Source: Saururus chinensis
Taxonomy: Eukaryota; Streptophyta; Magnoliopsida; Piperales; Saururaceae
Direction of reading: 5' to 3'
DNA: 64,000 nucleotides
Assembly: GCA_035235625.1 (NCBI GenBank)
Contig: CP141149.1
Location: 9,640,893-9,704,892 of the forward strand
The notes under the pieces are model-generated. The model was given only the letters and a program-made list of their open reading frames with translations. It did no database searches and was not told where the DNA came from. Each line of letters opens with the position of its first letter. The stretch's first letter is position 1. Below are positions 7,276-40,626 of this stretch, in pieces. The position numbers and the translations under genes were made by a program.

Positions 7276-9211
7276 AATATGTCCTTTCGGACCAATCAAC
7301 TTGCGATTAATCCACGACCGATCAATCCGGCACACAATTCCATCACATTGCATCCAATCGGTCAAATTCGATTAATCACGATGAAGCCTCAATTGGAAAT
7401 CCATTTTCATGATGCATGCAGCATGGTACATACGTGGGCAAAGCATACATGAATCTTAATCCATGATAAGTGCTCTCACCAGCCCTTAATGCATCATTCA
7501 TAATCACAATATTAAGCTTCAACATCATCATTTGACCCCACATGTGTGTGTGTATCTAGTAGAAACATTTCACATAATGCATGCCATCATGCTTGAAATT
7601 AAACTCACTACCACACTACACATGTGAATTTCTATCTAAACATGAATTCTAGCGGAAATCATAGTAGAAGAATCGTTGAAATCATAGCTAAATTCAAAAC
7701 TCAACCACAAAGGCTAAACGCATATAACTTCACTCATTTCATCATTGAGTCATGACATTCACCAACATCCACACACCACTAACCACAATCTATCATGACA
7801 AATCGGTCCAATAATGATTGTAGTCTTACTGAAAATATATGCTTAAGCAAAGGGAAACAACCATTCATAATTTCAAGATAACGATTCCAACATCATGCCA
7901 CAAAACATAAGTCATTCCACCATCCCTAAGCATATGTCTCAACTCCATAAACTCAATAGCATGCATTTCCAGTAGCTTAACATAGCTTAAAACACTCCAC
8001 ATTCATATAAAATTGGCAAGCTAAAGTGGAATCATCAAAATAGACATCATATGCACAACATGCAATTTTCTGTGTAGCCGATCGATCGCCCCGCAGGGCC
8101 GATTGATCGCCAACACGGCAGAACAGTCATCTTCTTCCTTTCGCAAAATCAAACCGAAACACCATAGATAACACTTCAAATCCACATCTAACACCCTAAT
8201 CATCATCAAAAGTCCTCCTTGACTTCCAGAATATCAAACCAAACCATAATAATGCAAAACCCTAAGAAATCGGTATTAAATAATTCCATTTTCTAATCTT
8301 ACCATTAACACACTAAATCAAGCAAACTATTTCGAAATAAGCTAAAAATGGAGAGTTTTAACATGGACAAACAGAGATTTTGAAGACCCATTACCTCAGC
8401 ACTTGATTAAGCTCGGATTGAAGAGTCACCCTTCTTGAAATCCTTGAAAACACAATGAGTTTGAATTAAACTCTAATAGAAATCGATTTACTCAAGAAAT
8501 CCCTAATTAAATCTTAGATCTAGGGCTTGTTGGTAGTAAAAATTGAATTTTGAATGTTAGGGTTTGTAGTAAAACACAAATCAGTAGTTTTTTATGGTCA
8601 AAAACGAATTGAATCAAGGGGAAAATGGTAGATTTGGAAGAAATAAAGAGAAAAGCCATAGATTAGTGCTTAATTATAGTAAGCTTACCTTAATCGGCTT
8701 CTAATTCGGGCCTAAGTGGGGATTAGGCCAGCCCTCCTTCCTTAGCCTATTCCCAAAAATGGAAATGGCTCTGGTTTGCCCTTTTATAGTAAGGGTTGGG
8801 GTAGGCATAGGTAAGTTTTGGGGTGTAAATATGAAAAGTAGGTTAAAAGTGGGTATTTTACAAATTTAAGCACAATTTAAGCCTAATAAAATTCTGAAAA
8901 TTTTTGTGGGACCTTAAGTATATGTCTAGGTTCATTTGACATAAAAATAAAATTTTTGACGGTGGGGCCCACAGGGGTCCCGCCAAAGCCCTAATTTTTG
9001 AGAAAATAGTGAAAATTCTGAAAAATCTCAAAAATTTAAATTTGGTCTAAAATCACTTAAAACCACTAATATTGAAGTTAATTTTGGTTAAAACCATCAC
9101 AAACACTAGTTATTTTACGAAATCACAGAATAAGATCAGAAAACACGTAAATCTCACGATAACCAATAATTAAAGAAAACCAAAACCGGTTTAAAGATGA
9201 GGGTCCTTACA

Positions 9212-9939
9212 CGCCGGGGCTAGAGTAGTGCTCCCAACAAGTCTTGGTGGAGTGGTTGGTCCTATCGCAAATCTGACAGGGGGGTCGAGGGCTGCGACCA
9301 CGAGGACCCGAGCACCGACTGCTACTAGGAAAGCCACCACATGGTCCGGGAGCCCCACGGCCGTCGGCCGACGGGGTGGGAGAAGCAAGCCCCCCCCTCC
9401 CCCCATGCGTGGGGAGGGACCGGAGGCAGGGGACCATAGGTGGTAGGTGGGGCAGCACCATAGGAGGCAATGGGAGCTCTAGTGGCTGGAGGAGAGTGAT
9501 GCCATGGGTGGCGGGCAATGAGGGCTGTTGCAGGAGGCAGGCCCACAGTGGGGGCAACAGGGGCATGAGCAAGGGTGACTTCCTCGGCGATGAGAAATGT
9601 CCAAAGTTCCGGGAGGGGAATGGAAACACCATGAGCACGGAGGGTGGCAGAGAAGACAAAGTACGTGCCAGAGAGGCCGTTCAATGTCTTGTGGAAGAGG
9701 TCAAGGTCCGAAATGGGAGTGCCAATTGCAACAAGCTGATCGGCATAAGCTTTTAGGCTGTCGAGATGCACCGTCATAGTGCCGTCGCCTTGGACATGGG
9801 CAGCGAGACTCTCTTTCACATTGAGGATGTGAACTGGGGAGGTGGAGAGGAAGCGATCCTCAGCGGTAGTCCAAAGGGTAGCAGCAGAATCAAGGCCGAT
9901 GAAGTAGTTGAGTAATGAGGGAGAAATGGTGGTGATAAT
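9212..9939 (-). pseudogene. copia gag, middle and zinc-knuckle part
   Basis: On the minus strand this stretch encodes the UBN2/copia gag core (LSTSPVHILNVKESLAAHVQ, LDSLKAYADQLVAIGTPISD, FHKTLNGLSGTYF), then a Pro-rich linker and a CX2CX4HX4C zinc knuckle (CQICDRTNHSTKTC) close to 9250. The reading frame is open over about 160 codons but shifts within the linker. It is bounded by solo LTR 1 on the left and the 9940-13836 insertion on the right. Confidence 0.88.
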
Positions 9940-12900
9940 TGTAACGTCGGGGAATTTTCTAAATTTTCGAAGTCGTACACGGGGAAATTAGGGTGTTGGA
10001 CCCCTTGATCTTCTCGTGAGAATAACTTGATCAATAGCTAGAACTGGTAGCTGAATCCTATATGGATGGATAAGGAAAAACCCTTACCCACATTTAACAT
10101 GGGACATGAGTACTAGTGTGGAAGGGTTGAAATTCGTTGCCTTGCAGTAATTCATTAAGATGAGTTACGCTGTGGAAACAGAAGTTCGTGTGAGTCGGGT
10201 GCTAAACCCTAGAGAGGGTGAGTGTGGGCTTTAGGGCTAAACTGATTTTAGATTGACCTTGGAGAATTGCCGGGACACAATTCCTCTTAAGTGGGGAAGA
10301 ATGTGACGACCTGAATTTTAGGGGTTATTAAGTTTTGTCCTGCCTAAATTATAAGTTGCAGTTGATGTAGTTTGAAAGGGTAGAACGGTTTTTGAGTTAA
10401 AGGCCGAGCTTGAAAGGGTTGGCTGTGGCAAATTGCGAGGACGCAATTCTTTTGAGGGAATAATGTAATATCCCTAATTTTCCTGGGTTTCGAAATTTAA
10501 ATACGTGGAAATTATGGTGTTTGACTTATTGACATTCTTATTAGAATAACTTTCTCCCTAGATATAATTTGGGGCTGAAACTAATTCTATTGGAAAGTAG
10601 ACGGAAAGAGCTTCGAAACGCCACCAAGAACGCACGAATCGGAGTCCGGATGAGGGAGAAACGACCGTTTGAAGTTGAACATATCGTGCAGGACCCGTTT
10701 ACCCGAATTGAACGCGCGAATTGGCAGTTTAAGGTGCGATGTGGGCCCGATAAATTGCTGTTCCGAAATTGGGTTTTTGAGGTCTAATTCCTCATGGGAT
10801 TAGGAGTCGTAACCCCATTCCTATAAAAGGCCTTCTTAGGGTACAATTTGGGGATCTTTTTGCCCAATCAGAGGAGAGAATTCGGGTTTTTTGGAGGGGA
10901 AAAGGATGAGCCGTCGTTAGAATTTTCCGGCGAAGCATTGGCGATGTGGATCGACGACAAATCGGCCTGCGAGGTAGGATTTAGAATCAATATCAAAGAT
11001 GGTTTATTATTAAAATATAAAATCGTTTTTGTTAATTATATGAATAGTGATTTTTGCAATCACTGTTCACACAATTTCATTGAAATTGCTACTGCCGGCC
11101 AGTCACCGGCCGGCCACCGGCCGACAGCTGGTGGCTGGACCAATTGAGGGAGGGGCGTGCCGGTCCTGGCTGCAGTAGATTTGGATCCGACGGCCTTGGC
11201 GGCGGCGGATTGGCTGCCGCCGGGTCGTCACAGTGTAAAAAAAAAAAATGAATGGCAGGGGCGGCGCGGTGCGGACCGTGGCCGGAGGCGGGACCGAGGG
11301 TCACGGAATCGCCGGAAGACGGCGATCCCATCGATCCCGTACTTTTTCCGGTCGTGGCTGCCTGCCGCCGCGGCGCCGCGAGCTGGTTACAGCACTGAGA
11401 GAAAAGAAAAAAAAAGAGAAATATTTGGCCGCGGCCGGCCGCCGGGCAGTGGCGAGTCCAGGCCCACCGGAATCGCCTATGGGCGGAGATCCGGTGAGGC
11501 CTAGCCTTGCCCCGCCGGGCCAGCAGCCGCTGCCGCCGCCAGAGGCTTTCCAGCCTCTGGCCGGACGTGAAGGAGACGACCTGCGCGTCGCGGGTCGTCG
11601 GGCGCGGGTTCGGGTCAGGCGACCCGTGGCCAGGACCGGACCCGAATGGGTCTAACCCGGTCCGGTCTGGTCTAAAAAAAATGTTATTGAACCGGTTTTG
11701 GTTCACTAGCTTTAGGACTATAAAAAAAATTCGTAAAAATTACCAAGTATCCATAGAAGTATTTCAAGAGTCCCGACCAAGTTTCAGACCGGGGAAAAAT
11801 CCCAGAGCCTCTGAAATGACTAATTTACCCTTGTAAGTGTAGCATAGAATAAATCACTAATGATCGAGTTTAGGGCCTCCGGATCAGGGGCCTATAAGTG
11901 GATTTATAAATTGAGAAAAATCTCAGGGAGATTCCAGTGAGTATCCTAAATTTGGACCAAGCCATAAGCTAAGTAAAAATCCCAGTAAGTAAATATTTGA
12001 CTGTTTTACCCCTGGGGTTAAGGTAAGACAGTTAATTGAACCGGAGTCGGTTCAAGGGGTTTACGACCCCGTTAAACGGAAAGAAAATTACCACGGGTTC
12101 ACAATGTCAAGGTGTACCCTTGGGATTAGTGTTGAACCTGTCAAGGTGTAGGGAAGCCCTGAACAAAAGACAAAAATACCCTTATGCAAATCAGCCCGTA
12201 TTCGCATGGATGCTATTAACGGGCCAATGTAATACTGAAACATTTTGAGAAGTTAAAGACATACCCGAGTGCAGAGAGGACTGTATCCAATGTTGGATAA
12301 TTATTCTAATGCCCTTAGGCGCATTTCGACCAGTTTAATAAAGATTTATTAAGATAACCCAAGGAGGGTTAGGGCACGAGAGCTCGAATGATTCTTATAT
12401 CATTAATGAATTCTATTATTGATATTATGATATGCTTGGACATGTGTAGTTCTGATTGTTTATGTTGTTCTTTGTTTCGATTTTTGATATTGATGTTGTG
12501 ATAGTAATTTATCACTAGTTGAAAATTATTGAAAGAATAATTACTTGGGGTTTGATAGCTTTGGATTAGGCAAGAACACCTAATCAAGATAAAGACTAAA
12601 ATACCTCAGAGAGTGCAGGACTAGTTCATACAGTGAACAAAGCCTTTGACCTGGCGATTTGCCTTGGTTGATGAACCGATGACATGTCTTGAGTTGTAAA
12701 CCTTAGTCTAGAAAGGACTAATAGGGTTTGGGATAGTTATTCGGAATCCTGGCTTATAGATGAGCAGGATAGGGTTCAGAGTGCTTTCCTGAGTTCTAGC
12801 TCTATTGAGGAGCCGTTGATTTGACCGTGTAGTTATACCTCCCCATTGGAGGGAGTTCTTTGTGAGCCGGGCTCACCGCAGATCTATTGAGGATCTTTTA

Positions 12901-13836
12901 GTGTACACGCAATTAGGGTCGCGAACATCCTGCTTGGTTGGCGTCTCTGACCACTTCTGTTCAGGTGCAGTTGTGGGCCATGCCCTTCCACTCCGGTCAG
13001 GTCCTTATGGGCTAGGTTGGGAGATGGCACGTCCTGGTGGATTCCAGGGGCCTGGTGGATTCCAGGGTGTTTCTTATCATTTATCACTTAGGTTGACATC
13101 TGATGTGTCTGTCTGTCTTTGGGATTAGACGGGAATATTAATTATCGAACAATGGTTCGAGAAATAATTAATAACATTGATTGATATTGCTTGTTTAATT
13201 AGAACAAGTGGAACGATTAAAGGACTTGCATAAAATGTAGGTTGCTTGAAAATACTTAAGCATTGTATGGGTGATGCTATGCTTCTTAGTATAGTATAGT
13301 TTTTAGGCAGAACTACGTTTGGATCCGATCTTGTTGGAAACATTAGAGATGTTGTCTGATGAGTACGTAGGCAACTAACATCGGGTGATGTTGGCCCGAT
13401 CCGAAAAATATTAATAAAACCTTTTGTCCTTTGGAAGCTCTTCTCCTGAAGGCGGAGATGCTCCATTGTGGTTGTAGTTGTTGTTTGGTTTGCTTTATTG
13501 CAGATTCTCCAGGCGACGACAAGTGACACCAAGGCTGGCGAGCTCAAGAGGTTTTCGCATTTTTGAAATTCCGATACGTAAGTGTGCCTTAAACGTGAGA
13601 GTTAACTTGTTATTTATTTTCAGGCGGGTGACAGACTTGTACTTAGATGGATGAGCTGGTCTTTATGAATTTTCAGATGTTAAATAATATCATATGATTT
13701 GATATTCGTATTTGTAAACCCCAGTTATCATGACCTGGATATTTAATCGAAGGGTTTATTTTGTATTTAAAGAAAAAAAAAATTTACCTACCATTCAAGC
13801 TATTTAAAAATGCTTTTAAAAATCCGGGTCGTGACA
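9940..13836 (+). mobile_element. internally deleted LTR element 2 (LTR start, PPT remnants, LTR)
   Basis: A perfect TSD, ATAAT, flanks the insertion (9935-9939 and 13837-13841); it begins TGTAACG and ends GGGTCGTGACA. It is not a plain solo LTR. The LTR-start sequence recurs at 10464 (TGTAATATCCC), and two purine-rich tracts that look like PPTs (AAGTGGGGAAGAA before TG at 10302, and TTTGAGGGAATAA before TG at 10464) lie in between. This fits a 5' LTR fragment, the 3' end of the internal region, and a 3' LTR from about 10464 to 13836. A TATA-like box (TATAAAAGG) is near 10822. It was inserted in copia gag. Confidence 0.8.
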
Positions 13837-13997
13837 ATAATAGCAGTAAGAAGCACTCAATCAATACAACGCCACTGGGTGGCCGTGGGACAGGCAGAAA
13901 GGTCGCCGGTGGGGGGGCACTTGGTGGAGCCGTCAAGGAACCCCATAACGCTGTAGCCCTCAAGGAGGTCACGAACCTGAATCTGCCAAATGAGGAA
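13837..13997 (-). pseudogene. copia gag fragment between two insertions
   Basis: This short piece of the host copia element reads on the minus strand as gag (EGYSVMGFLDGSTKCPP in one frame, typical of the region after the gag start). It is bounded by the ATAAT TSD on the left and the AGGAA TSD on the right. Confidence 0.75.
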
Positions 13998-15061
13998 TGT
14001 AAGATCCCTGATCTTAAACCGGTTTTGGTTTTACTTTAATTATCAGTTATCGTGAAGTTGACACGTTTTCTGATGTATTCGGTGATTTCATGAATAAGTG
14101 GTGTTTATGATGGTTTTAACCAAAATTAACTTTAAGATTAGTGATTTTAAAAAAAATGTGAATTTTTGGGTTTTTTCTAAATTTTCACTATTTTTCCAAA
14201 AATTAGGGTTTTGGTAGGACCCCTGTGGGCCCCACCGTCAAAATTTTGATTTTTGGGTCAAATGAAACTAGATATCTACTTAAGGTCATACAAAAAATTT
14301 TAGAATTTTATCAGGCTTAATTAGTGCTTAAATTTATAAAATACCCATTTTTAGCCTACTATTCCTATTTACACCCTATAACTTACCCATGCATACCCCA
14401 ACCCTTACTATAAAAGGGCAAACCTGAGCCATTTCTATTTTTGGGAATAGGCTAAGGAGGGAGGTCTGGCCTAATCTCCAATTAGGCCCGGATTAGAAGG
14501 CGATTAAGGTAACCTACTCTAATTAAGCACTAAACCCTAGCTTTCTTCTTAATCTCTTCCAAATCTACCATTTTCCCTTTGTTTCAATTCATTTTTGGAC
14601 ATCAAAAACTACTGATTTGTGTTTTACTACAAACCCTAGCTTTCAAAATTCGATTTTTATAATCAACAAGCCCTAGATCTAAGTTTTAATTAGGGATTTC
14701 TTTGGTAAATCGATTTTGAATGGAGTTTAATTCAAACTCAATGTGTTTGTAAGGTTTTCAAGAAGGGTGACCCTCAAGTCCGAGCTTAATCAAGTGCTAA
14801 GGTAATGGATCTTCGAAATCTCAGTTTATCCATGGTAAAACCCTTGATTTTTGGTTTATTTCGAATAGAGTTACTTGATTTGGTGTGTTAATGGTATGAT
14901 TAGAAAATAGAAATATTTAATCTCGATTTCTTAGGGTTTTGCATTATTATGATATGGTTTAACATTCTGGAAGTCATGAAGGACTTTTGATGATGATTAG
15001 GGTGTTAGATGTGGATTTGTATGGTGTTTCGGTTTGGATTTGCGAAAGGAAGAAGATGGTT

Positions 15062-15250
15062 CAGTTCTGCCTTGTTGGTGTTCGAACGGCCCTTTTGGGC
15101 GTTCGAACGGAAACACTGTAGGAATGACAGTTTTCCAGTTCAGCCGATCGAACTGCCTGCTAGGCGTTCGAACGACCAAACTGTGAATTTTAAATTTTTA
15201 CGTTTAGCCTATCGAACGGCCTTCTGGGCGTTCGAACGGCCACACAGCAG
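15062..15250 (+). repeat. three paired-palindrome modules in solo LTR 3
   Basis: Each module has two arms such as GTTCGAACGGCC and GGGCGTTCGAACGG separated by a few bases, followed by an ACACTG or ACACAG block. The spacing is about 65-75 bp. Comparable modules occur in other LTRs of the window (8071-8128, 24711-24785, 40168-40211). Confidence 0.8.
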
Positions 15251-16199
15251 AATGTTGTTCAATTTGTATGATGTTTATTTCGATGATTCCACTTTAATTT
15301 GCCAATTTCATATGAATGTTGAGTGTTTTGAGCTATATTATGCCACTGGAAATGCATGCTATTGAGGTTATGAAGTTGAGATATATAATTAGAGATTTGT
15401 GGAATGACTTATGGTTTGTGGTATGATGTTGGAATTGTCATCTTGAAACTATTAATGGTTGATTCTCTATCGTTAAACATGTTTTCAGTAGGACTACAAC
15501 CTATTAATGGATCAATTTGTCATGATAGAATGTGGTTAGTTGATGTGTGGATGTTGGTGAATGTCATGGCTTAAGGATGAAATGAATGATCTTATATGTG
15601 TTTAGCCTTTGTAGTTGAGCTTTGAATTGAGTTATGATTTCAATGATTCTTCTTCTATGATTTTCGCTGGAATTCATGATTAGATGATAATTCACATGTG
15701 TAGTGTGGTAGTGAGTTAATTCAAGCATGTTGAAATGCATTGAGTGAAGTGCTTCTATTAGGTACACACACATGTGGGGATTAATGATGATGTGGAAGCA
15801 TGATATTATAATTATGAATGATGCATTAGGGGCTGATGAGAGCACTTATCATGGATTAAGATTCATGTATGCCTTGCCCAAGTATGTACCATGTTGCATG
15901 CATCATGAAAATGGATTTCCAATTGAGGCTTTATCGAGGTTAATCGAATTTGATGGATTGGATGCAATGTGGGAAATTGTGTGCCGGATTGATCGATCGT
16001 GGATTAATCGAAACTTGATTGGTCCGAAATGACATGTTTTGATTTGAGTTCCTGTGTGGAACAAGTGCACTCCCCGGGTTGAGTCTAGTTAAATGGAGTT
16101 AAGTAGGGATGAGTTGTGTACTTGTCTTGCGGATTGAGATTATTTATAATTCACTGGACCTTGAGAATCCAGTTGGTTTGTCCGAGTGCACCGACTTAC

Positions 16200-16510
16200 T
16201 AGGTGTTGTTGCTTGGGACTTTAGTCTTGACAAGCAGGGTTGCCCGGGAGTTTAGACTTGTTGGGCAGGAGTTGCTCAAAGGCGTTGGCCTTGAGGAGCA
16301 GGAGTTGCTCGAAGGCATTGGTCTTGAAGAGCATGTCTATTTGATAGGAATTGCTCGAAGGCGTTGGCCTTGAGGAGCAGGAGTTGCTCGAAGGCGTTGG
16401 CCTTGAGGAGCATGTCTATTTGATAAGAGTTGCTTGAAGGCTTTGACCTTGAAGAGCATGTCTATTTGATAAATGTTGCTCGAGGGCTCCGGCCTTGAAG
16501 AGCAGGTTTA
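16200..16510 (+). repeat. tandem repeat with GGAGTTGCTCGAAGGC units
   Basis: Six or so imperfect copies are present, some extended by GAGCATGTCTATTTGATA. It is part of solo LTR 3 and non-coding. Confidence 0.8.
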
Positions 16511-16559
16511 TTCTCTATGTGTATGAACTTGCATGATGGACTAGTGTGTGTATGTGACA

Positions 16560-17035
16560 CTTATACATGCATGGTGAATGAGAATGATGTGATGTATGAT
16601 TGAATATATATGTTAGAGATACATTTATGTAGGTTGTTATGATGTGATGTATGAGGGAATATGTATGTTAGAGATTCATTCATGTAGGTTGTTATGATGT
16701 GATGCATGGGGGAATATGTATGTTGGAGATACATTTATGCAGGTTGTTATGATGTGATGCATGATTGAATATGTATGTTAGAGATAAATCTCATGCAGAT
16801 TGGTATGATGTGAAGCATGATTGAATATATATGTTAGAGATACATCTCATGCAGGTTGATATGATGGATGCATAATTGAATATGTATGTTAGAGATACAT
16901 CTCATGTAGGATTGATATGGTTGTTGAAGCATAATTGATATATATGTTAGAGATACATTTCATGCAGGTTATTATGATGTGATACATGATTGGATATATA
17001 TGCTAGAGATACATTTCATGCAGATTGTTATAATG
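16560..17035 (+). repeat. about 60 bp tandem array in solo LTR 3
   Basis: About eight units contain ATATGTTAGAGATACAT and GATGTGATGTATGA. This is the counterpart of the 6086-6770 array in the inverse LTR. Confidence 0.85.
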
Positions 17036-17671
17036 TGAATGACATTATGTGGATTATGCACTATGATGCAGTTTTAGGTGACGTGTATGTATGATCAGAA
17101 AATGATGCACCTTGCCAATCTTTGATCTAAATGATTATATTGCTATGCTATCGTATTTTCGGTGTTGATAGTGATATTAAAAACCATTGCTGAGTTTGTT
17201 AAACTCACCCCTCTTTCTTGTGTTTTGTTTTGGGGTTACGTGGTGCGACACGCAGTTGGACAGGATCTCCTCTTTGAGGAAAGGTCGGAGATGGCTTGGA
17301 TGTGATCATGGAGATCGTTGCATGACTTATCTTCTTTGGTTTTATGCTTATGTTTAGAACCTTCGTGTAGGGTTCTTTGTTTTGGATTTATGTCACATTC
17401 TACAGTTATGTTTGCTTAAGACTTATTTGAGCCAGTGTGGGCTTTAGTTAACTAAGCATGTGGGTTTGAGATTCGTTGTTTACTTTGTGATAAGCAACTC
17501 TCTTTCTTTCCTTCTTATTTACTCTTGCTCAAAGGATTGTGCGTACTCCAAAATTCTGTTAAATTGCCCGTGGATAGGGTTAAGTCTTCCGCTAAATTGT
17601 TTTCTCAATTTCCCCTTCGTTGCCCCTGCACACCGGGTTCGGCTCGGGTCAGGCATCGCCAGGGCGTGACA

Positions 17672-18770: not shown

Positions 18771-18775
18771 AAAAG

Positions 18776-23619: not shown

Positions 23620-26600
23620 TATAAGATCTCTGAACTTAAACCGGTTTTAAATTCATTATGTTTGATTACTTTTATGTGGTTTAAACCATTTTTGATCAAT
23701 TTTGATAATTTTTTAAAAATAAAGGTGACTTCCAAAAGTTTTAAAGAGAAATAACTTCACATTTGTGAGTTTTAATTGAATACAAACCATTTGTGAATTT
23801 TTGAGGATTTTTGGAATTTTTGCATATTTTTCAAAAATTAGGGTTTTGCAAGGCTATGGGCCCCACGGTAAAATTTGGGGTTTTTGGTTCAAAACGTCCC
23901 AAACATCAAATAAAGTTACTACAAAAATTTTTAGAATTTTTCTGGTCCTAATTTTAATTTAAATGACCAAATTTCTTAATCCTAGTAAAAAAATTTATTC
24001 CTACCTCAAGTTTTAGTTAGGTTTACCCCCATTCCCTCCTATAAAAAAAAGAGTTGGGCCATTTCCAAGATGGGAATAGGCTGTGCAAAGGTGTTTACAG
24101 CCTAATCCCCAATTAGGCCCAAAGAGGAAGTGATTAGAGGTATATTCTTCCCTAATCCATGCTTAATCATTAGGGTTTTTTCTAATTATCTCTTAAATCT
24201 ATCTTCCTCCATTGATTAAATCCAATTTTAAACCATTTAATCACTGTTTTACTTCTCTATTTCAAAGCCTAACCCTTCAAAAATTCTTTTTTATGTCTCA
24301 TAAGCTATAAATCTAGGGTTTTCTTTATAATTTTCAAGGTTAAATCAAGTTTAGATGTGTATTAATATAAAAATCATGCTTTTGGAAGGTTTTGGAGGTG
24401 ATTAAAGGATTAATCCGATTCAAGTCAAGTGGAGAGGTAATGGGTTTTTAAATCTCAGCCTTGTTATAGTGAAAATCTCAATTTTTATGGGTTTTACTTA
24501 AATGAGTTTTCTTGATTAAGGCTTTAATGGTAGATTTGCGAAATGTTAATCTCTTGCCTTAATTTCTTATGGTTTTACCTTGGAATGAGTTTAATTAGCT
24601 TTCTGGAATGTTTGATTGAATTTTGATGGTGTATGAGGCTTGGGATGAAGGTTTTAGGGTTCTTTAATGGTGTTTCAGTTTTAAATTTCGAAAGGAAGAA
24701 GAAAACTCGATCTGCTTGTTGCCGATCGATCAGGCCAATCGAATGGCTTGCCAAGTCGATTGATCTGCTATACAACAATTCTGCCATTTTGGGATTTTGA
24801 TGCTTACTTCGGTGTTTTTACTTGAATTGATGATTTTAATATTTATGGGGAGTATTTTATGTTGGAATTAACCTACTGGAAGGGTGTAGAATTTGTGATG
24901 GAGATTTATGGAGTATGCTTAAGTACTTGTTATGTGGAATTATATGTTGATAGTTATACATGTTAACATTAAATTATCTTGAATCTATGGATGATGAAAT
25001 TCTTATGATTGGAGCATGTTTCCAGCAGGGATATTACATGGTAAATGATGAGCTATGTCAACATATAATGAGAATGGATTGTGGGTAGATGATGTTATTA
25101 TATTATAGCTTCATGTGTAGACTAATCATGCTTATAGGAGTTAAACATTTGATTTCACAGAACATATTTATGGTTTATGGTAAATTTCACCTTAGATTTT
25201 AGTTGGTAATCATGATTTAAATGTGTTTAAGCATGCTTATTTTGCCTTATGAACTTATATCAAAGCATTGGTCATGTGCTTAGGAAATGCATAAACACAC
25301 ATGTTGGGGAATTTTCTATGAAATCAAGGTCATTTATGATTCGACTATGATGGGTGTGGGGACTGATGGAAGCACATTCCATGTGTTGGAACTCACGTAG
25401 ATTTTGCTCACGAATGTATCATGATTTTATGTGTCATGGAATGGACTTTCTGAATGAGATTTTACTGATGTTTAGTCGTGATTGATTGATTGTATGCAAT
25501 GATGTGAGATTGTGTACTGGATTAATCGATCGTTGACTTAATTAGAATTTGGCTGGTCCAAAAGGATATGATTTCGATTTGAGTTCTTGTGTGGAAGATG
25601 TATACTCCTCGGGTTGAGTCAATTTCAATTATTAATGCGGTTGAGATTTATTTATTGACACAGTCAAACTTGGACCCTAAGAATCCAGAGTGGTATGCCT
25701 TTATGCACCGGCTACCACATCTTCTAGGTTTCCCCTGAGGAAATCGGAGTCTCCTTGCCGCTGAGATGTCTAGAGTGAACACACTGCTCTAGTTAATTTG
25801 GACGTTCCTAGCTTAAACTGTCCAGAGTGAGTAGACCTGCTCTAGTTAATTCGGACTTCCCGTGTGGATTGTCCAAAGTGAGTAGAGGGGCTGACTACCC
25901 CTACACCCTAGTTTTCTATATAGAATTTAGACCATGTACAGAGCGGGCAATGCCCTACATTTTTGGCTAGGAAATCAGATTACGTCTAGAGAGGGTGATA
26001 TGATTGTATTCCTGGTATGATTGTATTCCTCTCTATGATGGAGACGTTCACCATTTAATGAGAATGCATGTGTATGAGATAATATTATGTTCAAATTTAC
26101 ATAGGTTATGTAGGGATATTTAAGATTATGTGACACATGTGGATGTGATTTATTATGCATGATATTAATGTAATGTTGTTTAGACACTTATTGTGCAGGT
26201 GAATGAGCTATGGAATGTATGAGATTTATATGAATGCATGATCTGAATTTTGTGTTAGATACACTCCTTATGCAGGTTGATGTGATATGAATACATGATC
26301 TGAATCATGTGATTGAGACTATTATTTAGGTTTATGTGATATGAATGCATGATCTAAATGGTCTGAATAAGACATTATTATGCAGGTTTATGTGATATAG
26401 TTGCATGATTAGAAAGTGTGTGAAAGACACTTCTCATGTGGTTTATGGTGATATTGTGCTTGATTTGATTAGATTACTTATGCAAGATGGATGCTAAGTT
26501 ATGATATGATTATTTATTATTTGATTTTGATAGGGGTGTCATATGCATGCTAGCAAAGGAATGATTAGAAAAAGGGTATACTATGTTGATTATGAATATG

Positions 26601-27176: not shown

Positions 27177-29298
27177 TGTAACGACTCATTTTTCGGTTAC
27201 GTCTAACCTGAAGGGTTAGGCCTAATTAGATAATTTTGGGATAAATTTTAGAGGTTTTCAATAGTTTAAACCTCAGTATTTGAATAGAGCTCGAAGAAAT
27301 GAGCGTAACGATTCGAAGAACAGGCAAAACGGAGGTCGGGACCGGAAGTGACGACCTCGGGAAACGTAGACAATAGGCGGGACCCACTTGGAAATAGTGT
27401 GATTTTCTGCTTTAAGTGGGTTTTTATCAAAGGGCTCGTCGATACGAGTCCAATGGTACCTAGAACGCGTGAATCCGAATCCGGGGTAGGAAGTTACGCA
27501 CGTTTAAAGGTTTGTTTTAAAAAAAAATATGAAAGAAAAGAAATGGTGCGCGGTGCGCGACTGGCGCGCGCCGCAGAGTGTTTCGGCGTGAGCCAGCGTG
27601 CGGCCGCGAAACTGCGTGCGCCCGCGGTAACGTGAGCACGGCGTTTCCGCGGCGCAGGTGCGACCCACGTAACGCGCGGGCGCGAGCCGCGCGTTACCGC
27701 GGGCGCCGCCACCTGAAACCAGCGGCGCAGCCACGGTTTCGGCGCGGCTCGGGGGCTATATATACCCCCATTTCGTTCCTTTTTGAACCAGATTTTCCTT
27801 TCCTCTGTTTCTGACCGTTCTGAGGCCAATTAAGGCCGTTCAAGACCCGTTTCCTACTAAATCAAGTATGCTGTACGCAATGGAGCTGTCCGTTCTTCGA
27901 GTTGGAGACCGTATGATGAAGAAATGCCCCATGACAAAGAGAGGTTCTGCCCATTACCTTCAAGCATCAACCAACTTCCTTTTCTCTGTTTCTGGCCATG
28001 CTAACTCCGATTTAGTCGATTCAAGAGGCGTTCTTGACTAAATCGAGTATGTTCTACGCGATGGAGGGTTCTATTTTCTGAGTTGGTGAACGTATGGAGA
28101 GGAAACACCCAAAGACAAGGAGAGGTTCTACCCGTACCGACCAACTTTGTTTTCTCTGTATCTGGCCATCCCAACTCCGATTTAGTCGATTCAAGAGGCG
28201 TTCTTGACTAAATCGAAGGTGTTCTACGCGATGGTGGGTTCTATTTTCTGAGTTGACAATCTTATAAGGAGGAAATACCCCGAGACTAAGCGAGGCCCTG
28301 CCTGAACACCGAAACAAGAAAAAGACACCCGGAGTAAGACGGGTTTCTGTCCGTAGATGCCGATACCGTACAAGTTATGATGGAAGTAAGCATTTCTGAT
28401 CTTCCATTGTAATTGTAGAACAGCATGTGCTAAGTTATGATGTGTGTTATGCTACGATTTATATGTTTATTGTGCTATATGCTTGATGTACTATGTGTCT
28501 ATATACTTGCTATGCTATGTGCCTATATGCCATGTTGTGTGTCTATATGCCATGATGTGTGCTTATATGCCATGATGTGTGCTCATATGCCATGATGTGT
28601 ACTCATATGCCATGATGTGTGCTCATATGCCATGATGTGTGCTCATATGCCATGATGTGTACTCATATGCCATGATGTGTACTCATATGCCATGATGTGT
28701 GCTCATATGCCATGATGTGTGCTCATATGCCATGCTATGTACTTATATGCCATGATGTGTGCTCATATGCTATGATGTGTGTTGTCTCGCTCTAGGGTAG
28801 AGCGAGACATGTAATGTGATTTTGATCCCGCTCTGTGGTAGAGCGAAATGTATGATTACGTTAGTTTGTTAACTTCCGCCTGACTCCGATATATGACAAG
28901 TTTTTGTATACTTCCAATTAAATATTCGGAGATACGTTATACATATATGATTTTGTGATGCTTTTGTATGTAGTAGCCATTAGGCAGAACTACGTTCGGA
29001 TCTGATCGTGTTGGAATAATATCCAATACGTATGTAGGCAACCAACGACAAGGCAACATTGTCCCGATCCAACTCATTATAATAATATGTTTTATTCTGT
29101 TTTACACGCGACGAACTATGAAGCTTCATTGTGTGTATGTGTTCATTACAACCTAAGTCTACGACGAGGAAACCTTAAAGCTCCGTAGTGCGTAGATGAA
29201 CGTTGTACCTCTTGCACTCAGACGATGATTCTTGGCTCAAGGAAAAGAAAATTTTTTATTGGTGATTTTGTGGGCCCGACTCGGGTTGGGTCGTTACA
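27177..29298 (+). mobile_element. solo LTR 5 (2.1 kb)
   Basis: A perfect TSD, CCGGG, lies at 27172-27176 and 29299-29303. It begins TGTAACGACTC and ends GGGTCGTTACA. A GC-rich block (27530-27750) runs up to a TATATATA box at 27757-27764. Downstream are two or three copies of a module around CGATTTAGTCGATTCAAG (27900-28220) and a 20 bp array. Confidence 0.9.
28508..28785 (+). repeat. 20 bp tandem array in solo LTR 5
   Basis: About thirteen copies of ATATGCCATGATGTGTGCTC and near variants are found, with GTGCTC and GTACTC forms interspersed. The purity suggests recent slippage. Confidence 0.92.
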
Positions 29299-29338
29299 CC
29301 GGGTTAGACTCAGGTTGGGCGGGTGCCAGGACATGACA

Positions 29339-29735: not shown

Positions 29736-29739
29736 GCCA

Positions 29740-31640: not shown

Positions 31641-32177
31641 CCTGCGGATTTAAAGCCATGGATACATAGAAGCGCATGGATTCTGCACACAAATTGTATT
31701 TTCTGCGAACTCCATGTGCTTCATGTTCTCTGTCTCATATTTGTCATCCATTCCAATAGATGGGTTGAATTCCTTAACAATGTCAAAAAGTACAATTCAA
31801 TTCCCAAAACTGCTAAAAAAAAAAAAGAAAAACTCATTGCTACATCTAAGTATTTACAATTTTGGGCCCTTACTGTATAAATGGTCATGCTCCTAACACT
31901 CAGAGATAAATCCAAACAAAGGTGGACTTTATTCGTAAAACATTAAACAATGTACAGACGGAGCCTGTTATTTACACAGCACAAACAGCTACGAGAAGTT
32001 GAAAGAGTTGCAGCACAGAAGAAACGTGCTAAACGCACCAGTACACATTGAACTATGAACGCAAAAGACACCATACAACTACACAATTACACCAAGGGCG
32101 AAACCAAAAATCAATGAAGGCATTTTGATGGGAGTAATGGCAGACAACCATCAATGAGAAGGCACCACATATTTCAA
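31641..32177. other. 3' flank of hydrophilic-protein gene copy 1
   Basis: AT-rich DNA; parts from about 31770 to 31960 match 35060-35280 beside gene copy 2, so this is shared 3' flank or UTR. No other gene is seen. Confidence 0.55.
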
Positions 32178-33092: not shown

Positions 33093-33389
33093 ATTGAGTC
33101 CGCAGATGAAAGACTTGATTAACCGTCCACCATTTCTGTATCTGGCGTGTGCAAGTGAGGTCTGGTGGAAGAAAGAATCTACCCTACAAGGCAGTGGCGA
33201 GACCTCCCAGGTGACCCTTGGTCTTGGACATGATTAGCTCTAACCATGTCCACATGAGGAGAATAAAGTTGCAGATGAAGTATAAGAAGACCACACTTCA
33301 CGGCAGCATTATAAATTAAGAAACAAGATTCTTCAATCAAGATGTTGCATGCAACTTTTCCCTTTGAAAATAAAAAACAATATGACATC

Positions 33390-34490
33390 CACAACAAACA
33401 TAAAATAATTGTATATTTTCCTATTTGCTTTGCCCTGATTTCTCTATTTTTTAGATATTTTATTGGAATTTTGGTTATATTGCATAGAATATGTAACCAT
33501 CTACAAGCTCAAACATATTATACAATTTTTTGGTAAGTAAAAGGTTTATATTAATTTCAAAGAAGGGAATATCATAATCAAGATTTCGTATACAGACTCA
33601 ATGCCAATATTTCACATTATTATCTACTCACTTCATTTTAAATCATAAGATATATGAGATTTGTATCTATTTGGTGATTAGGAACAGTGTGATTTTAAGA
33701 TTGGGATAAATATCCTCATTTGGGTACGTGGAATTTGTCCAAGATTTGATTTGATTTTGCATTGTATATTACAAAAGAAATCTAGTATTTTGTTATTTTC
33801 ATATAATATTATTAAATTTGTGTAATATTTTTTTACAAAAATCCTCTCACTATCATGCCAATGCTTCTTTGGTTCTCATTAGTCCCTATGATCTCTTACG
33901 TGGAAAATGATGTTTCATCATCCTCTTAAGAGTTCCTTTTAAAAGAAATTGGAATAAAGCGGCTATCCTGGTCCAATAGATCTGAAACTCAGAATTTTAC
34001 TGCAGATTTGATAATTCCGCCAATGGCCGTGACAGTCACAAAACAAACAGACATAAGCAACTGTCTCTTTCATTGTTTTTGTAGTTTTTTTGTACAATAG
34101 AAGAAAAAGAAAATCACGCGCAACATGTGAAAAGGAGAACAAATAAAGCTCTTTCGCAACTTTGTAATCTTCACCGGAGAGAGAAGTGGGAGTTGGTAGG
34201 ATGCTGAGAAGGCTTGAGGACAGAGGAAGGCAGAACTTGAATATTGTCAGAAAATACAGTTAGAACCAAATTTCAGGATTTAACATTTTAAGATAACTAA
34301 TTCTTGATATTTTAAGATCAAAGTCTATAGATGTGATTTGTAATATCCACCTTTCTAGTTATAATTCAAATGATGTGATTTAGGGGGTGAGTTGGCTCAA
34401 AATCAAATCCCGCTGAAAAATAGGTTTCCAAATGGGGAGAGTGGACCAAAATCACAACCCCCAAATCCCTGTTGCCAACACAACCTGACG
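33390..34490 (+). repeat. segmental duplication copy C (partial)
   Basis: The order differs from copy B: 33390-33635 matches 31340-31590, then the sequence jumps to the element interior (33637-34486 matches about 29965-31038 with internal deletions, including loss of the rest of the 5' end). This suggests an unequal exchange between tandem units. Confidence 0.8.
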
Positions 34491-35340
34491 AATGGTTGTT
34501 AACTTACAAAAGAGTGATTCTAGGGGTTCGTCAAGGGAGTCCTCTGTTGCCTCCTCTGTTTTGAGGACCTGTTAATCTGTCTTTTGACGTTAGGAAGGTC
34601 TATTGAGTCAGGTTCAGGCATGGGGATGCACTGTAGGACTGGTCCTGGATGATTCTTAGTCATTTTTATTTTTTATTTTACAAAATTGTGCATTGCTGCT
34701 GAGGTTGAGCAGTCAATGTCCTTGTTGATAGGGGTGGAAATCAGTCCAACAAACATCAAAATAAAGGGTTGGTCTGCTCATGCTTTGAATGTGCTTAGTC
34801 TGTATTGGTATGCGTCTCTGTCCCTTGGCCATCGGCATGGATGCGGATGAAACTGCATTCTACTCCTGCATCTTTTATAGGTCTTCACAGAGACGAATTC
34901 TTCGGTTTGGCGAATTGATGTCTTACCCAAGTAATACAGATCAATCGCTAGGCAAAACACTCTTGAAATTGAGAGCTGGTTTGAAAAGAAAGTAAGAGGG
35001 AAAGGTGTGCGGCAAATTTAAGATCTCCTTAATAAAAACGAATGAGCCAATTCCTAAAAGAAGAAAGTTGAATATATCCCTTAACAATGCCAAAAAGTAC
35101 AATTCAAATCCCAAACTGCAACACAACTCTTTGCTACATCTAACTAAGTATTTACAATTTTGGGCTATAAATGGTGACCACAACAATCCAGCCCACTTTC
35201 ATCAGTGTCATGCTCCTAACACTCAAGACATAAATCCAAACAAAGGTGGACTGTACTCTTAAAACATTAAACAGCACTAGTTTTGCAATGTCATATTTCA
35301 ATTAGACAAATTATGTCAAGAATCTACCATATCCATTGGC
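34490..35340. other. flank between copy C and gene copy 2
   Basis: 34490-35040 matches nothing else seen in the window and holds no gene. From about 35060 it matches the 3' flank of gene copy 1. Confidence 0.5.
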
Positions 35341-36211
35341 AATTTACTGGACCACATAGAGCCACCGGTAATCCCTTTCTTTCTTTCATGCAAATTAGTC
35401 TTCAGTGCAGTCATGATCTCGTCATCAACAAAATCAGCCTTCTCTTTCCTATCCCTTGAAATCCCTTGATTTCTCTCTATTTGCTGCTTTGGATCCTGCC
35501 ATAACCTTTAGTACTTTGTATCTTTGGATCCGAATTATGTTCCTCCTAATCACTCGGCCTAATTGATCCAAGAGATGATGGATAATCCTTCATATCTTTG
35601 CCAGTCATCTGATTTCCTTGTCTTGGCTGCTGTTTGATGACCTTGGATGTCTCTGCAGAATCACAATCAAATCCATTCTCCTTGCCCCTATGAGTAGTTC
35701 CAATTGCCGTCATGTAATCAGCCTTCTTATTTGATCTTGAAATTTCTTCTGCCTCCTTATCGGAGTGGACAAGCTTTTCACGCTTGCTGCTCTTGTCTGT
35801 AAGGATTTGGTCACCGGAAGGCAAGGCTTTTGGCTTTGTGGCACCATTGGAACCCACCTCGGGTACAAATTTCTCTGTATAACCATCAGATTCTTCAGGT
35901 TTTCCCATGTTGGTACCTCCCATGTCAGGTGCAGTTGGATAAGTAGAACCAGATGGTACTTTTGTTTTTGCAGCAATGGCCTCTGCAGAGCCATAGTGAC
36001 CGTTTACACCGCTCGTGCTGACTGTCCCTTTGGTTTCAACTGGCTTGTCAACTGCAGTAGGAAAGGGCTTTTCCACCTTTGGAGATGAACAGCAGCAGCT
36101 TCTCAGCCACTCCAAGCATGATAAGTCGCTGCTGTTGCTGATGTTCTTCGCCTTCTCAGGTGCCTCCTCAACCCCCCTGGGGAAGCAACCAAGTTTTTTG
36201 ATCTGACCCAT
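35340..36211 (-). pseudogene. unrecognised hydrophilic protein, copy 2 (broken)
   Basis: The copy starts at ATG 36211-36209 and follows copy 1 for over 200 residues, including the CCC run near residue 36. It ends early at a TAG where copy 1 has CAG (Gln), at 35546-35548, giving 221 codons. Further on, a net deletion of 46 bp relative to copy 1 near 35500 shifts the frame before the conserved end, whose codons survive around 35340-35400. The N-terminus differs: a few residues are added after MGQIKK. A truncated 221-residue product could still be made, but loss of the C-terminus and the downstream decay suggest a pseudogene. Confidence 0.85.
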
Positions 36212-36213
36212 AT

Positions 36214-36312
36214 TTTGAGTCCGCAGATGAAAGACTCGATTAACCGTCCACCATTTTGAGTCCGCAGATGAAAGATTTGATTAACCGTCCACCATTTTGA
36301 GTCCGCAGGTGA
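36214..36312 (+). repeat. 43 bp tandem repeat upstream of gene copy 2
   Basis: Two and a half copies of a unit with TTGAGTCCGCAGATGAAAGA and TTAACCGTCCACC are present. Copy 1 has only one at 33093-33135, so the expansion is specific to copy 2. It lies in the presumed 5' UTR or promoter. Confidence 0.85.
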
Positions 36313-36774
36313 CCCTTTGTCTTAAACATGGTTAGCTCTAACCTAACCTAAACATGTCCACATGAGGAGAATAACGTTGCAGATGAAGTATAAGAAGACC
36401 ACACACTTCACGGCAGCATTATAAATTAAGAAACAAGATTCTTCAATCAAGATGTTGCATGCAACTTTTCCCTTTGAAAATAAAAAACAATATGACATCC
36501 ACAGCTTCAAACATCAAAGAAAGAAAAGCTATGGGAACCATATTCGCTTCACTTGGACCATATATATAGGGATTACGGACTAACTTGTATGTGAATTTTG
36601 TCTGCATTGGAATCCTGCCTAATCCTACCTGCACGCTTCATATACTGGGCCATGCCCATTGTGAAAAGCATGTATTAGAGGTGATGATCCACAAAATAAA
36701 ATCCCCCCTTTTTATGGAAAAAATCCCCCTTTAATGTAATGGTTTGTTGGGTTCCAATATTCGGCAACTTAGTA
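36313..36774. other. upstream flank of gene copy 2
   Basis: 36340-36505 matches the flank upstream of copy 1 (33230-33388). The rest holds nothing recognised. Confidence 0.55.
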
Positions 36775-36979
36775 CTCCCTCCATCCTATATTAATAGCTA
36801 TATTTAAAAAAATAATATTTTTTATTAAATGGTGAAACCCACATATAATTGAAGGAAAAATTAATAAGCTTATGACACTCTTTTTTAAGTACTGAACTAA
36901 TTAAATTTAACTAAATGAAACTAATAATATGGAATAAAATTTTTGGTTAAATAGAACTATTGATCTAGGACGAAGGGAG
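36775..36979. mobile_element. Stowaway-like MITE 1
   Basis: It has TA dinucleotides on both sides, CTCCCTCCATCCTA at one end and CGAAGGGAG at the other, and a length of 205 bp. The CTCCCTCCG-type terminus is a hallmark of Stowaway (Tc1/mariner) MITEs. The inside is AT-rich and non-coding. Confidence 0.8.
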
Positions 36980-38860
36980 TATGTGCTAGACAAAACATAA
37001 AAAAAAATTATTCTCCTCACCATTGAGCAGGAGGACCAGTGGATAACTAGAGGGGGAGAAATGTGGGAACATTTGAATCATGTTTCAAGGTTTTTCTCTC
37101 ACCACTTCTTGATAATGTGGCAGCTTTCCAGTGTTGGTCGCCAATACCTAGGTCATGAAATATAGTCACACTCAGACAGGTTCAAACATAAACATGCACA
37201 TACTTAAAGAGTACTTTGCATGTCTATATTCCCTTCCTATTTTTAGGGATGTTTTTTTATTAATTTTAATATTTTAGAATTTTTGTAAAGCATGCAAATA
37301 AAAATGTATTGCTTTGTAATTATGGATTCAAGCGCATCCTCTGCATTCAAAACATGCTCTTTTTCTCCCATATTTTTTGCAAGTAAAATTCTATGAATTA
37401 TCTATCCACTATGAAAATCTTTGTCCAATTTCAATTGCTTATCATCGAGTTGTGATTTTTGTTTTCTAATTGCTCATGAATTCTTACACTACATAATAAT
37501 TTCTAGAATTCATATATAAATAAATACCTTTCAAAGGAATATTTACTTTTCACTTTGATTTCAATAACAAATTCATTAATTTGGTTGCTACAAAACTTCA
37601 TGATCATATAATGTTTCTAAGTATTTTTTTTCTAAAAATAAAAATTATCTATAGGATTAAAATCATGATTTCGTAAATTAGTGAATAGTTTGATAATTAG
37701 CTTGCATGCTTGTTTTGAAATTAATAAATCATTTCCATGCATCTTTTTCCATCATTTATATGTATAATTGGGTGGGATTGAGTTATCCATGTTTTGATAA
37801 CAAGATAGAAATTAGCAAGATTTTATGAGTGTCTTAGTGCCACAATAGAAATGTTACAAAAATAGTTCAAAGTAGCTAATTAGAAGGACTTTGGGGGTGT
37901 AATATGTAATGTATGCAGGGCCTTACTAGATGCATATCGGCAGTCTAGAACACAACTTCTTAGGTAAAGGGTGTATGGGTAAAGTGGAAGAACACATGTT
38001 AATTTTTATAACTTTGATCATGGTATACATTTATATTCTCTAGAAGGTGGAATGACTTCATGTTTACTTTTACTGTTGTTTATCTTGTTATGCATTTTTT
38101 CACACATAAATTTGTGGAATTAGTGTGTGTCAGTAATTTTACTGACTGTAGCATCTCGTGTGGTATTTCTTTTGAATGAATTTTTTTATTGTGCACATTC
38201 ATACAAATGTTTTAGAAAATGTAGATTATTAGTGTTGGGAGCCACAAGTGTATTGGATAGAAAAACTCATGTTTGTGAGACATGGGTAATTGTAGTAGGA
38301 GAACTTTAGTTATTCTATTATTTTAAATAAATGTAAAAATACTATCTAAGTTGCAAATATTTGGTACTCAGATTAATTGTGAGATTTTTATGAGTATGAC
38401 TAAATTAGTAATTTAATTGACATTATCTTTACGTGGGCGCTTTGGTCAAAGTCGTGACAAATTGTTGTAGCTGAATAAATTGGTCCTACTTTAATTAGAT
38501 ATAAACTTGACCTAGGGTTAAGGTTGGGTGAGAGAAGAAAATAAAATACTTAGCAATCTCTAGGATGTGAGGTGCATTAGAACTAGCATTGATTGCTTTG
38601 TTTGTTGTGTTTTAGTATTAAGTACTTTCTTCTGAAAGGCTTGATGGCAAGCAGCGGGAGGATCAATGCTTCTGCAAGTCAGTCGAATGTTGAGACATCA
38701 GATGGTTCAAATGAGGGATACTTTGGAGGGTTTGGCTTAATTTTCCCAAACTCAGGTGCAACAAGTACAAAACATTCACCAATAGGTAGAGATGGTGCAT
38801 GCAACAACTTGTAACATGCATGTGGGAAAGTGTTAGGCTGGGGGTGGCATAAGTGCACCA
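36980..38860. other. AT-rich intergenic DNA, no gene recognised
   Basis: Only short ORFs are present; none shows a known domain. A 73-codon ORF near 38593-38814 includes a Ser-rich stretch without a family match. Confidence 0.5.
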
Positions 38861-39256
38861 GGCCTGCACCGGCCCACTTGGGTAATCGGGCCGGGGTTGG
38901 GCAGCAAGGACCACAGGTCACAAGGCTTGGTACCCTTGGGCTGCAGGCCATCCCACAGCTCTGTAGGGGGCTTACCCAGGCCCCATGAGTAGTGCCTTGG
39001 AGATCCCTACCTTGTCGAGGCTAGGCCATGCCGCAACCGAGATGGAGGGGCCTGCGTTGCTCTAGGAGGGGCTTGCGCTGCACCGGGAGGTGCCAACGCG
39101 GTTAGTGGATGAGGTCCTGCTTTTGGGATAGAAGCGGTCAAGCAACTAGGGTGGAGGGGGCCGTGCGGCTAGGAGGATGCCAAGGGTCACGGCCCACGAC
39201 GACTTGGAAAGGTTGCCAATAGTAGTGGCTTTTTCTTAAAGAAAAAAATAAGGCAA
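38860..39256. other. GC-rich island of unknown nature
   Basis: A GC-rich block with GGGCCGGGG-type runs and degraded coding-like text. It continues at 40632-40700 on the other side of a solo LTR, so the LTR split it. It may be a decayed gene or transposon. Confidence 0.4.
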
Positions 39257-39261
39257 GCAGG

Positions 39262-40626
39262 TGATCATTTATAATTAAACCCTTTGCAAGTGTACAAGGT
39301 AATTATACTAGGATAAGTATTTAAGGGTTGTCGAACCTCAGGGACGGATGTATTATCACTAAATCTAAAGAGGAATTTGCTGATTGAAAACTAAAATAAA
39401 CTTAAACTTTAATTAAGCAAAAGAAAGGAATCAACTATATTAAAATAAGAGATTAATATGATAGAAATTACTTAGGAAATTGAATCCACTATAGAACCAT
39501 AACAATTCCTTAACTTTTAATCTAAATCTAGTGTGAATATGAATAAGTATTCTCAGCTACAAGCTAGAATTACTTCAAAAAGAATCATTAATTAACTTCC
39601 ATGGCATGAACTATCTTCAACAATAACACGAATTATCTACACTAAACTAGCTATAGGCATGACCCGTCTAATCTTAGTATAACTCATCCAAGTCATTAAT
39701 TATCTGAACATTAAAACTATTGTATGACCATCTCATCTAAATCACAAAAATTAGAATCGATGCAAATATCAAAACCATATCAATCTATCATCTACAAGAC
39801 AATAATTAACATAGACTTGAATAAACATTAAAAGCTCTTCCATTAAAAAGGAAATCCATATCATACAATTGTTATCATTCACAACTGAGATCTAAATTAA
39901 AAAGAAAAGAAACTGAAACTTATCTATAGCTTCATCAACTCCTAAGTAAAAGAAAAGTCTAGGCTTCCATTGTAGAAGAAAGTACTTGAATCTCCATTGA
40001 AAGCTTTGAGTTTTCTTTCATCCTCTTCTTCCTTTTTCTTTTCATAAAATCTACTGAAATCTCCCAATTTTAAGCCAAATATGTCTTTTTATAGGCATAA
40101 GTTCCGTAGGAAGAAGTCCAATATGAAAAGGATTGAAATTTGGGTCAAACTAGGAAATTGCACGTTATGCCGTTCGAACGCCCTGCATGCCCGTTCGAAC
40201 GGCTACACTGTTTTTGCAATCTGGACAATTTTCCTGGACAGTCCATATTCTGTTCATTAAGCTTTTGTTTCATGTCCATATTAATTTCCAACTTATTTAT
40301 AACTCCGAAAAGTTGTCCAAATCACTTTAAAGCATGTCAAGACTATTTTTAATCATTTTACACATCGTCCAAGTACTTCGATAAGCGCACTTTTCCTACA
40401 AAATATAAAATATTATACTTTAGACATGTAGAAAGTTACTAAAATTTCATCTTGTTTTAAATACATGTCTAAACAACTAATAACTACAAAATCATTAATA
40501 ATTAAACTAAAATACTAATATCTATCTTAATCTAAATAAACCATAATTAACTCTAAATTAACCTAATCTATACTAGCAAATAAGGTAAAAAGGCATATAA
40601 AATAGATATGGATTTCATACTTATCA
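39262..40626 (-). mobile_element. solo LTR 8 (1.37 kb, different family)
   Basis: A perfect TSD, GCAGG, lies at 39257-39261 and 40627-40631. The termini read TGATCATT...CTTATCA on the plus strand. A TATA-like box (TATAAAAAG on the minus strand, near 40090) gives a leftward orientation. The plus-strand left end has CAAGTGTACAAGGT and TGTCGAACCTCAGGGAC blocks, a style seen in some plant Ty3 LTRs. A paired palindrome lies at 40168-40211. Confidence 0.88.
40168..40211. repeat. paired palindrome in solo LTR 8
   Basis: The arms GCCGTTCGAACG and CGTTCGAACGGC are perfect inverted repeats separated by a short CCCTGCATGCC spacer, and an ACACTG block follows. The same layout occurs in the long gypsy-like LTRs of the window. 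Confidence 0.85.

Follow-up and report, generated by a model that had tools for sequence, protein, structure and literature searches.

The stretch of Saururus chinensis DNA analysed here (the window, 64 kb long) comes from contig 10 of a genome of 516 Mb in 11 contigs and carries solo long terminal repeats (LTRs) of retrotransposons that contain a small paired-palindrome module. The module consists of two 10-base palindromes, CGWTCGAWCG (W = A or T), whose starts are 20 or 21 bases apart. This distance is close to two turns of the double helix. The coordinates of the LTRs, the palindrome pairs and the TATA boxes are collected in the table. The initial annotation had placed the module near 8, 15, 24 and 40 kb and described its arms as self-complementary. 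The pairs near 8, 15 and 40 kb were recovered, with the reservation that at 15145 and 15209 the left arm lacks self-complementarity. The case at 24711-24785 turned out to be a degenerate remnant.

Table. Module-bearing LTRs and their palindrome pairs and TATA boxes in the window, with the family C copy read elsewhere in the genome (TSD, target site duplication; positions are those of the window unless stated)
Feature	Position	Strand	Basis or detail
Family A solo LTR	5475..9211	+	ends TGTCAC...TTACA; homology to 13998-17671; imperfect TSD
Palindrome pair, single, ATCGAT type	8079..8109	+	CGATCGATCG, 11-base spacer, CGATTGATCG
TATA-like box CCTTTTATAGTAAGGG	8780..8796	+	~675 bp downstream of the 8 kb pair
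Family A solo LTR	13998..17671	-	ends; perfect TSD AGGAA; homologous copies
Palindrome pair	15079..15109	-	TGTTCGAACG and CGTTCGAACG, 21 apart
Palindrome pair	15145..15174	-	CGATCGAACT and CGTTCGAACG, 20 apart
Palindrome pair	15209..15238	-	CTATCGAACG and CGTTCGAACG, 20 apart
Degenerate remnant in distant family A relative	24723..24766	.	arms 34 apart
Family B solo LTR	39262..40626	-	TSD GCAGG; ends TGATAAG...TGATCA; alignment ends of other copies
TATA box TATAAAAAG	40085..40093	-	77 bp downstream of last arm
Palindrome pair, single, TTCGAA type	40171..40201	-	flanks like outer ends of two-pair relatives
Family C solo LTR	L042 1427-2069 (outside window)		ends TGTTGG...CCAACA; TSD GTATG; one copy read

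The TSD of the family A copy at 5475-9211 reads CGGCG/CGGCA on the minus strand, with 4/5 letters matching. The orientation of the family was taken from an A-like copy elsewhere in the genome (L094), where the LTR end is followed by CAAATGGTATCAGAGC. We take TGGTATCAGAGC to be the usual initiator-Met primer site; a primer site after the LTR was seen in this one copy among the 10 junctions read. The decayed 5-kb piece beside the L094 LTR held no frame of 100 amino acids, and ten shorter frames from it gave no transposable-element domain. The LTR at 24 kb matched family A at ~65-74% identity in pieces. Because it is a distant family A relative, the cases at 8, 15 and 24 kb share the module by ordinary homology, an explanation that the initial annotation had named as one that would refute its reading and that does not extend to 40 kb. 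A TTTTATAGTAAGG-like box was located 629-654 bp downstream of an anchor just past the array in 20 of the 23 anchored family A copies; one further copy had its box at 408 and two had none (29 copies examined, six without the anchor). Both family A solo LTRs of the window also contain arrays of ~54-58 bp tandem repeats (6085-6749 and 16584-17038), upstream of the palindromes in LTR orientation. A copia-type gag fragment (Retrotran_gag_2; 9325-9987, minus strand) adjoins the 8 kb LTR.

The 40 kb pair lies, as first noted, in an LTR with other termini, that of family B. Here a TATA box was found 76-77 bp downstream of the last arm in 28/29 copies (18/19 and 10/10 in the two sets). Family B pairs occur ~5.8 kb apart on contig 2, for example at 26587970 and 26593803, and look like the two LTRs of full elements. 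A 2.8-kb piece from between these two pairs encodes, on the strand of the palindromes, a Retrotrans_gag domain (PF03732, E 8e-13) and an aspartyl protease. A cluster of inverted repeats built on TTTCGTCGTTCTGAACGACGAAA-like sequences near the family B solo LTR (41053-41283) could be a small foldback element. Family C has ends that we take to be usual for Ty1/copia, and in its one copy read a TTTTATAGAG stretch follows the module ~115 bp downstream. Another place, C1:9731135, has the same spacer as the first pair of that copy. The LTR ends thus differ among A, B and C, and the palindromic module is common to all three. From its position the module probably lies in the unique 3' region (U3) of the LTR, ahead of the transcription start.

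Similarity between families A and B was seen around the module only. When 40101-40320 was compared with 15001-15300, the best local matches were 54 and 68 columns around the module, with scores of 53 and 55 against maxima of 34 and 31 in 200 shuffles. Homology of the sequences linking the modules was dropped for every pair of families. For A and B, 207 and 3166 of 5000 shuffles were as good for the two A linkers, and the A linker was not among the best-matching places in the B-linker comparison with L002. For A and C the numbers were 337 and 373 of 5000, and for B and C 3 of 5000, the latter tying with other places in L044. A general long dyad in the outer flanks was likewise discarded (A 9 and 7 of 12, B 3 and 3, C 3 and 6); where symmetry does extend outward from an arm, the flanks read CCG...CGG.

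The layout of the arms is strict. In the window, GTTCGAACG with at most one mismatch occurred 16 times, whereas 100 shuffles averaged 4.8 occurrences and never exceeded 12. A strict paired-palindrome scan, blind to the imperfect pairs at 15145 and 15209, found 3 pairs; 100 Markov sequences averaged 0.3 and contained at most 2. The genome was searched with the pattern arm-N6-20-arm, which allows spacers of 6-20 bases and accepts exact arms only. This gave 493 pairs of the TTCGAA/TTCGAA type (CGTTCGAACG-N6-20-CGTTCGAACG; reversed-pattern control 0), 1466 of the ATCGAT/ATCGAT type (CGATCGATCG-N6-20-CGATCGATCG; control 1 per strand) and 376 mixed pairs (control 0). Among the matches listed, a spacer of 10 or 11 bases was present in 50/50 TT pairs (50 of 493), 49/50 AT pairs (50 of 1466; the exception has 20) and 99/100 mixed pairs (100 of 376; the exception has 7). 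Arm-to-arm distances in the window and in 40 loci, the latter chosen via the module itself, clustered at 20/21, 44/45 and 64-66 bases and at their sums. Intact arrays of families A and B agree in having 20/21 within pairs and 44-46 between pairs: 20, 44, 20, 45, 21 in family A, 20, 44, 21 in its AT subfamily, and 21 or 20, then 45, 21 in family B. They mostly hold four to six arms, counted within the LTR. Triplets of arms at 21-bp steps were encountered in both families (L040, L048, L110).

The 8 kb and 40 kb copies have one pair, and their relatives two or three. Since their outer flanks match those of longer arrays, the single pairs were read as deletions between modules, and the 8 kb pair, when aligned, corresponds to the two outermost arms of a longer array joined together. 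One CGATCGATCG pair at 20 bp (L113, C1:11770080) has an unrelated spacer and no match to A, B or C; it is a possible occurrence outside these LTRs, or chance. The mixed pairs listed (the first 100 of 376, reaching as far as C2:30.1 Mb) are unevenly distributed: 73 fall in C2:19.9-30.1 Mb, the part of C2 before it has 9, and the whole of contig 1 has 18. Several of the 73 are spaced ~5.8 kb apart, and they may represent a recently active, regionally clustered subfamily.

The central new point, which emerges most clearly in family B, is that the arms of an element appear to change type together while the spacers are shared. Independent arm frequencies would predict 965 mixed pairs in place of the 376 counted. 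For family B, 30 copies were at hand, 18 of them with two pairs at 21 bp and 16 of these in register (L040 and L043 were dropped). All eight copies of the AT set had AT letters at all four arms. In the TT set, five of eight had TT at all four, and the other three had one arm of another form (two with TT letters, one with AA letters) and none of AT form. The search pattern had dictated the type of one pair, so that a fair count comes from the other pair, which was AT/AT in 8/8 AT copies and 0/8 TT copies. The W letters differed in 0.953 of comparisons between the two sets and in 0.085 and 0.000 within them. The corresponding values for the spacers were 0.240 between and 0.242 and 0.252 within, and for the linker 0.304 between and 0.137 and 0.112 within.

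Family B spacers GGGCATGCAGGG and GGGTCACTTACC were found with TT/TT, AT/AT and TT/AT arms. Mixed places with B-type spacers, among the matches listed, carry TT on the left and AT on the right in the LTR direction, and at least five elements repeat this order in two pairs 65 bp apart (for example C2:24155638 and 24155703). By flanking sequence, B-AT is nested in B-TT as one clade with a support of 0.914, and in 30/30 B copies the nearest neighbour was of the same type (L034 and L043 have poorly fitting flanks). An AT subfamily exists in family A as well; its loci find their best match in the window in the 8 kb LTR. In 8/9 of its A-type loci the second arm of the first pair stays in the GTTCGATC form; the ninth (L110) has the triplet only. 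The co-variation that had been suspected on first reading, perhaps at a binding site, is thus supported at the level of subfamilies, for B and in part for A, with types shared and spacing and spacers kept.

Inside the families the arms behave differently. The 28 family A copies compared show 86 changes in the arms. Of these, 82 are C-to-T or G-to-A changes at CpG and mostly affect a single arm, which resembles the decay of methylated DNA. Arms drifting independently, named beforehand as evidence against co-variation, were accordingly seen within families and not between subfamilies. A/T positions were changed in 0/672 cells of the arms, 8/252 of the spacers, 7/840 between modules and 152/4720 of the flanks; these copies had been picked by similarity to the module itself and are a biased sample. 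A second sample was drawn from 20 of 40 other places found via the LTR end. Two gave no match, the 15 kb copy was added and the 8 kb copy dropped, leaving 19 sequences. Here the arms had a transversion difference of 0.028, compared with 0.060 for the spacers (p ~0.03), 0.058 for the linkers (p ~0.05), and 0.070 and 0.039 for the two flanks (p 0.0002 and 0.23).

We consider it probable, with room for doubt, that the module serves as a cis-regulatory array in the U3 of several LTR families, built from paired dimer-binding sites with types that switch. Each arm would be a palindromic site for a dimeric DNA-binding protein, and sites 20-21 bp apart would place both dimers on the same side of the helix. 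One to three such pairs, ~65 bp apart, would stand upstream of the TATA box. The W letters would set the site types, TTCGAA and ATCGAT, which tend to switch together across the arms of an element. A repeated paired dimer site ahead of a TATA box would fit an enhancer array, acting in transcriptional activation, better than an RNA fold. From the sharing of the module by such different LTRs we infer that the factor more likely comes from the host than from the elements themselves. No element-encoded binding protein turned up in 2.8 kb of one B element or in 5 kb beside one A-like LTR, in work that included no proper search aimed at one. The simplest cause of the switch would be that elements track host factors of different specificity, with module exchange by recombination helping a type to spread. 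The arm might also be read as a MYB-like AACGG or a LOB-domain-like CCG-N6-CGG site.

Several observations weigh against this account. The TATA-like box of family A is ~650 bp away from the array, and the constraint on the arms within family A is present but modest. The mixed class of 376 pairs is real, and the genome-wide counts take in no decayed arms. The copies are related, so the counts are not independent events. As B-AT is one clade by its flanks, the switch in family B may have been a single event; as its linker differs, the B-AT cassette may have been imported by recombination with a diverged relative. The concert in family A is only partial, since both subfamilies retain the GTTCGATC form in the second arm of the first pair. 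Two copies (L116 and L117) have the same spacer in both pairs, which is module homogenisation.

Two processes could produce the concert: the exchange of modules, or selection imposed by a factor whose specificity has changed. Neutral homogenisation, in which unequal recombination, gene conversion or template switching swaps modules within an array and makes the arms of an element alike without selection, draws on the signs that modules do recombine (the single-pair copies at 8 and 40 kb, the triplets and the identical spacers of L116 and L117) and on the position of B-AT as one clade inside B-TT by its flanks. The pair-specific spacers GGGTCACTTAC and GGCATGCAGGG, however, occur with TT, AT and mixed arms, and since they are kept across arm types, the copying of whole modules alone fails to explain the switch. 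This suggests that module exchange is not the whole account. The AT subfamily of family A and the spacing held at 20/21 also speak against homogenisation, which we regard as unlikely. Quite improbable, in our estimate, is the passive capture of a functionless cassette, a short piece of DNA that recombination would have carried from one LTR family to another. It would explain why A and B resemble each other around the cassette only and why LTRs with three kinds of ends have it in common. Yet the arms and their spacing are kept where the linkers hardly match between families, and in family A the transversion difference of the arms is below that of spacers and linkers. As to a small mobile module, proposed at the outset, the sharing by three kinds of LTR ends is all that stood; independent mobility was not seen in work without a search aimed at it.

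A hairpin formed by the two arms in the LTR transcript, as RNA or single-stranded DNA, with the fold as the functional unit, is the least probable of these alternatives, and a conserved RNA hairpin is not supported. Single modules do form more stable folds than shuffled sequences (z -2.2 to -5.2 for the five intact pairs, -1.6 for the 24 kb remnant), but such folding is automatic, because two copies of one palindrome always form an inverted repeat. Pairing was evaluated in classes A1, A3, B1 and B2; class A2, which combined 32 and 18 copies in two orientations, was set aside. The spacers of family A are partly complementary (in A1 and A3, on average 1.8 to 2.0 of the 3 inner pairs form), and A3 arms pair slightly better than shuffled partners, 35 of 1000 of which reach their level. 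In the other classes shuffled partners did as well (A1 431, B1 405 and B2 1000 of 1000), a T.T mismatch is fixed in 47/47 A1 pairs, and B2 spacers scarcely pair (0.94 of 3 inner pairs). The triplets at 21 bp do not suit a hairpin either, and the B module, being upstream of the TATA box, is probably outside the main transcript. The window gave no Rfam match at gathering scores and no tRNA gene with ARAGORN. The folded RNA element of the initial annotation was therefore abandoned, as were compensatory changes between arms, in view of one-sided CpG decay and pairing at chance level in three of the four usable classes and marginal in A3.

A wider idea may be put forward as a doubtful one: unrelated families in one genome would fall into specificity types (TTCGAA, ATCGAT and an alternating form) and would switch their paired promoter sites together, following or escaping a diversified host DNA-binding factor. 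They would share a switchable promoter code, in an arms race at single-letter resolution. The gain or change of promoters in LTR retrotransposons, and convergence on one host factor, are seldom visible from sequence alone. The natural variants described here, with two defined letters per arm changing largely in concert, form a ready-made set for finding the binding factor. They also allow one to ask whether promoter switches accompanied bursts of copying.

Elsewhere in the window, a 20-bp tandem repeat array occupies 28448-28821. An open frame of 412 amino acids on the minus strand (50524-51762) belongs to the plant DUF247 family (Pfam E 2e-106).

Searches of the open-access literature found no description of the module. 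For GTTCGAACGG nothing on LTRs was found by title, and CGTTCGAACG combined with retrotransposon matched only in work on mouse spermatogonia. LTR enhancers built of host factor sites are familiar from heat-responsive copia LTRs of the ONSEN type and from the BII boxes of Tnt1. To our knowledge their motifs and layout differ from those of the module, and we know of no stress link for the latter. A motif array serving as a protein target is a likeness to VANDAL elements, whose motif and VANC protein diversify together. According to the available parts of the sources, arrays of short motifs in the non-coding DNA of these elements are bound by a sequence-specific protein (PMC5735166, PMC10398659, PMC12844716). 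By the same partial sources VANC is element-encoded and VANDALs are DNA transposons, which sets them apart.

The closest parallel is with the repeated motifs of Sirevirus LTRs. In the part of PMC2829016 available to us, these are palindromes that recur in the LTR ahead of the TATA box and differ in letters between families while the symmetry is kept. The same text confines them to Ty1/copia Sireviruses and calls them absent from classic retrotransposons; it gives at least eight copies per element and a CGG-CCG core in all but Tnd-1 of 13. The module is likewise palindromic, repeated in the LTR and upstream of a TATA box (~650 bp off for the TATA-like box of A), and the Tnd-1 motif as printed there, ACAATCGATTGT, contains ATCGAT. 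Measured against that portion of the paper, the Ty1/copia host is not found in family B, the one family compared in this respect, as judged by its PF03732-type gag and an aspartyl protease. Nor do intact arrays reach eight copies, with mostly four to six arms per LTR, and the core is CGWTCGAWCG instead of CGG-CCG. Because three of the four features tested fail, the module was not filed with the Sirevirus motifs. Unlike these, as far as the accessible text describes them, it shows pairing at two helical turns, three kinds of LTR ends within one genome, and concerted switches. On the same partial description, the Sirevirus repeated motifs are the nearest known system, and the module probably works in a similar way.

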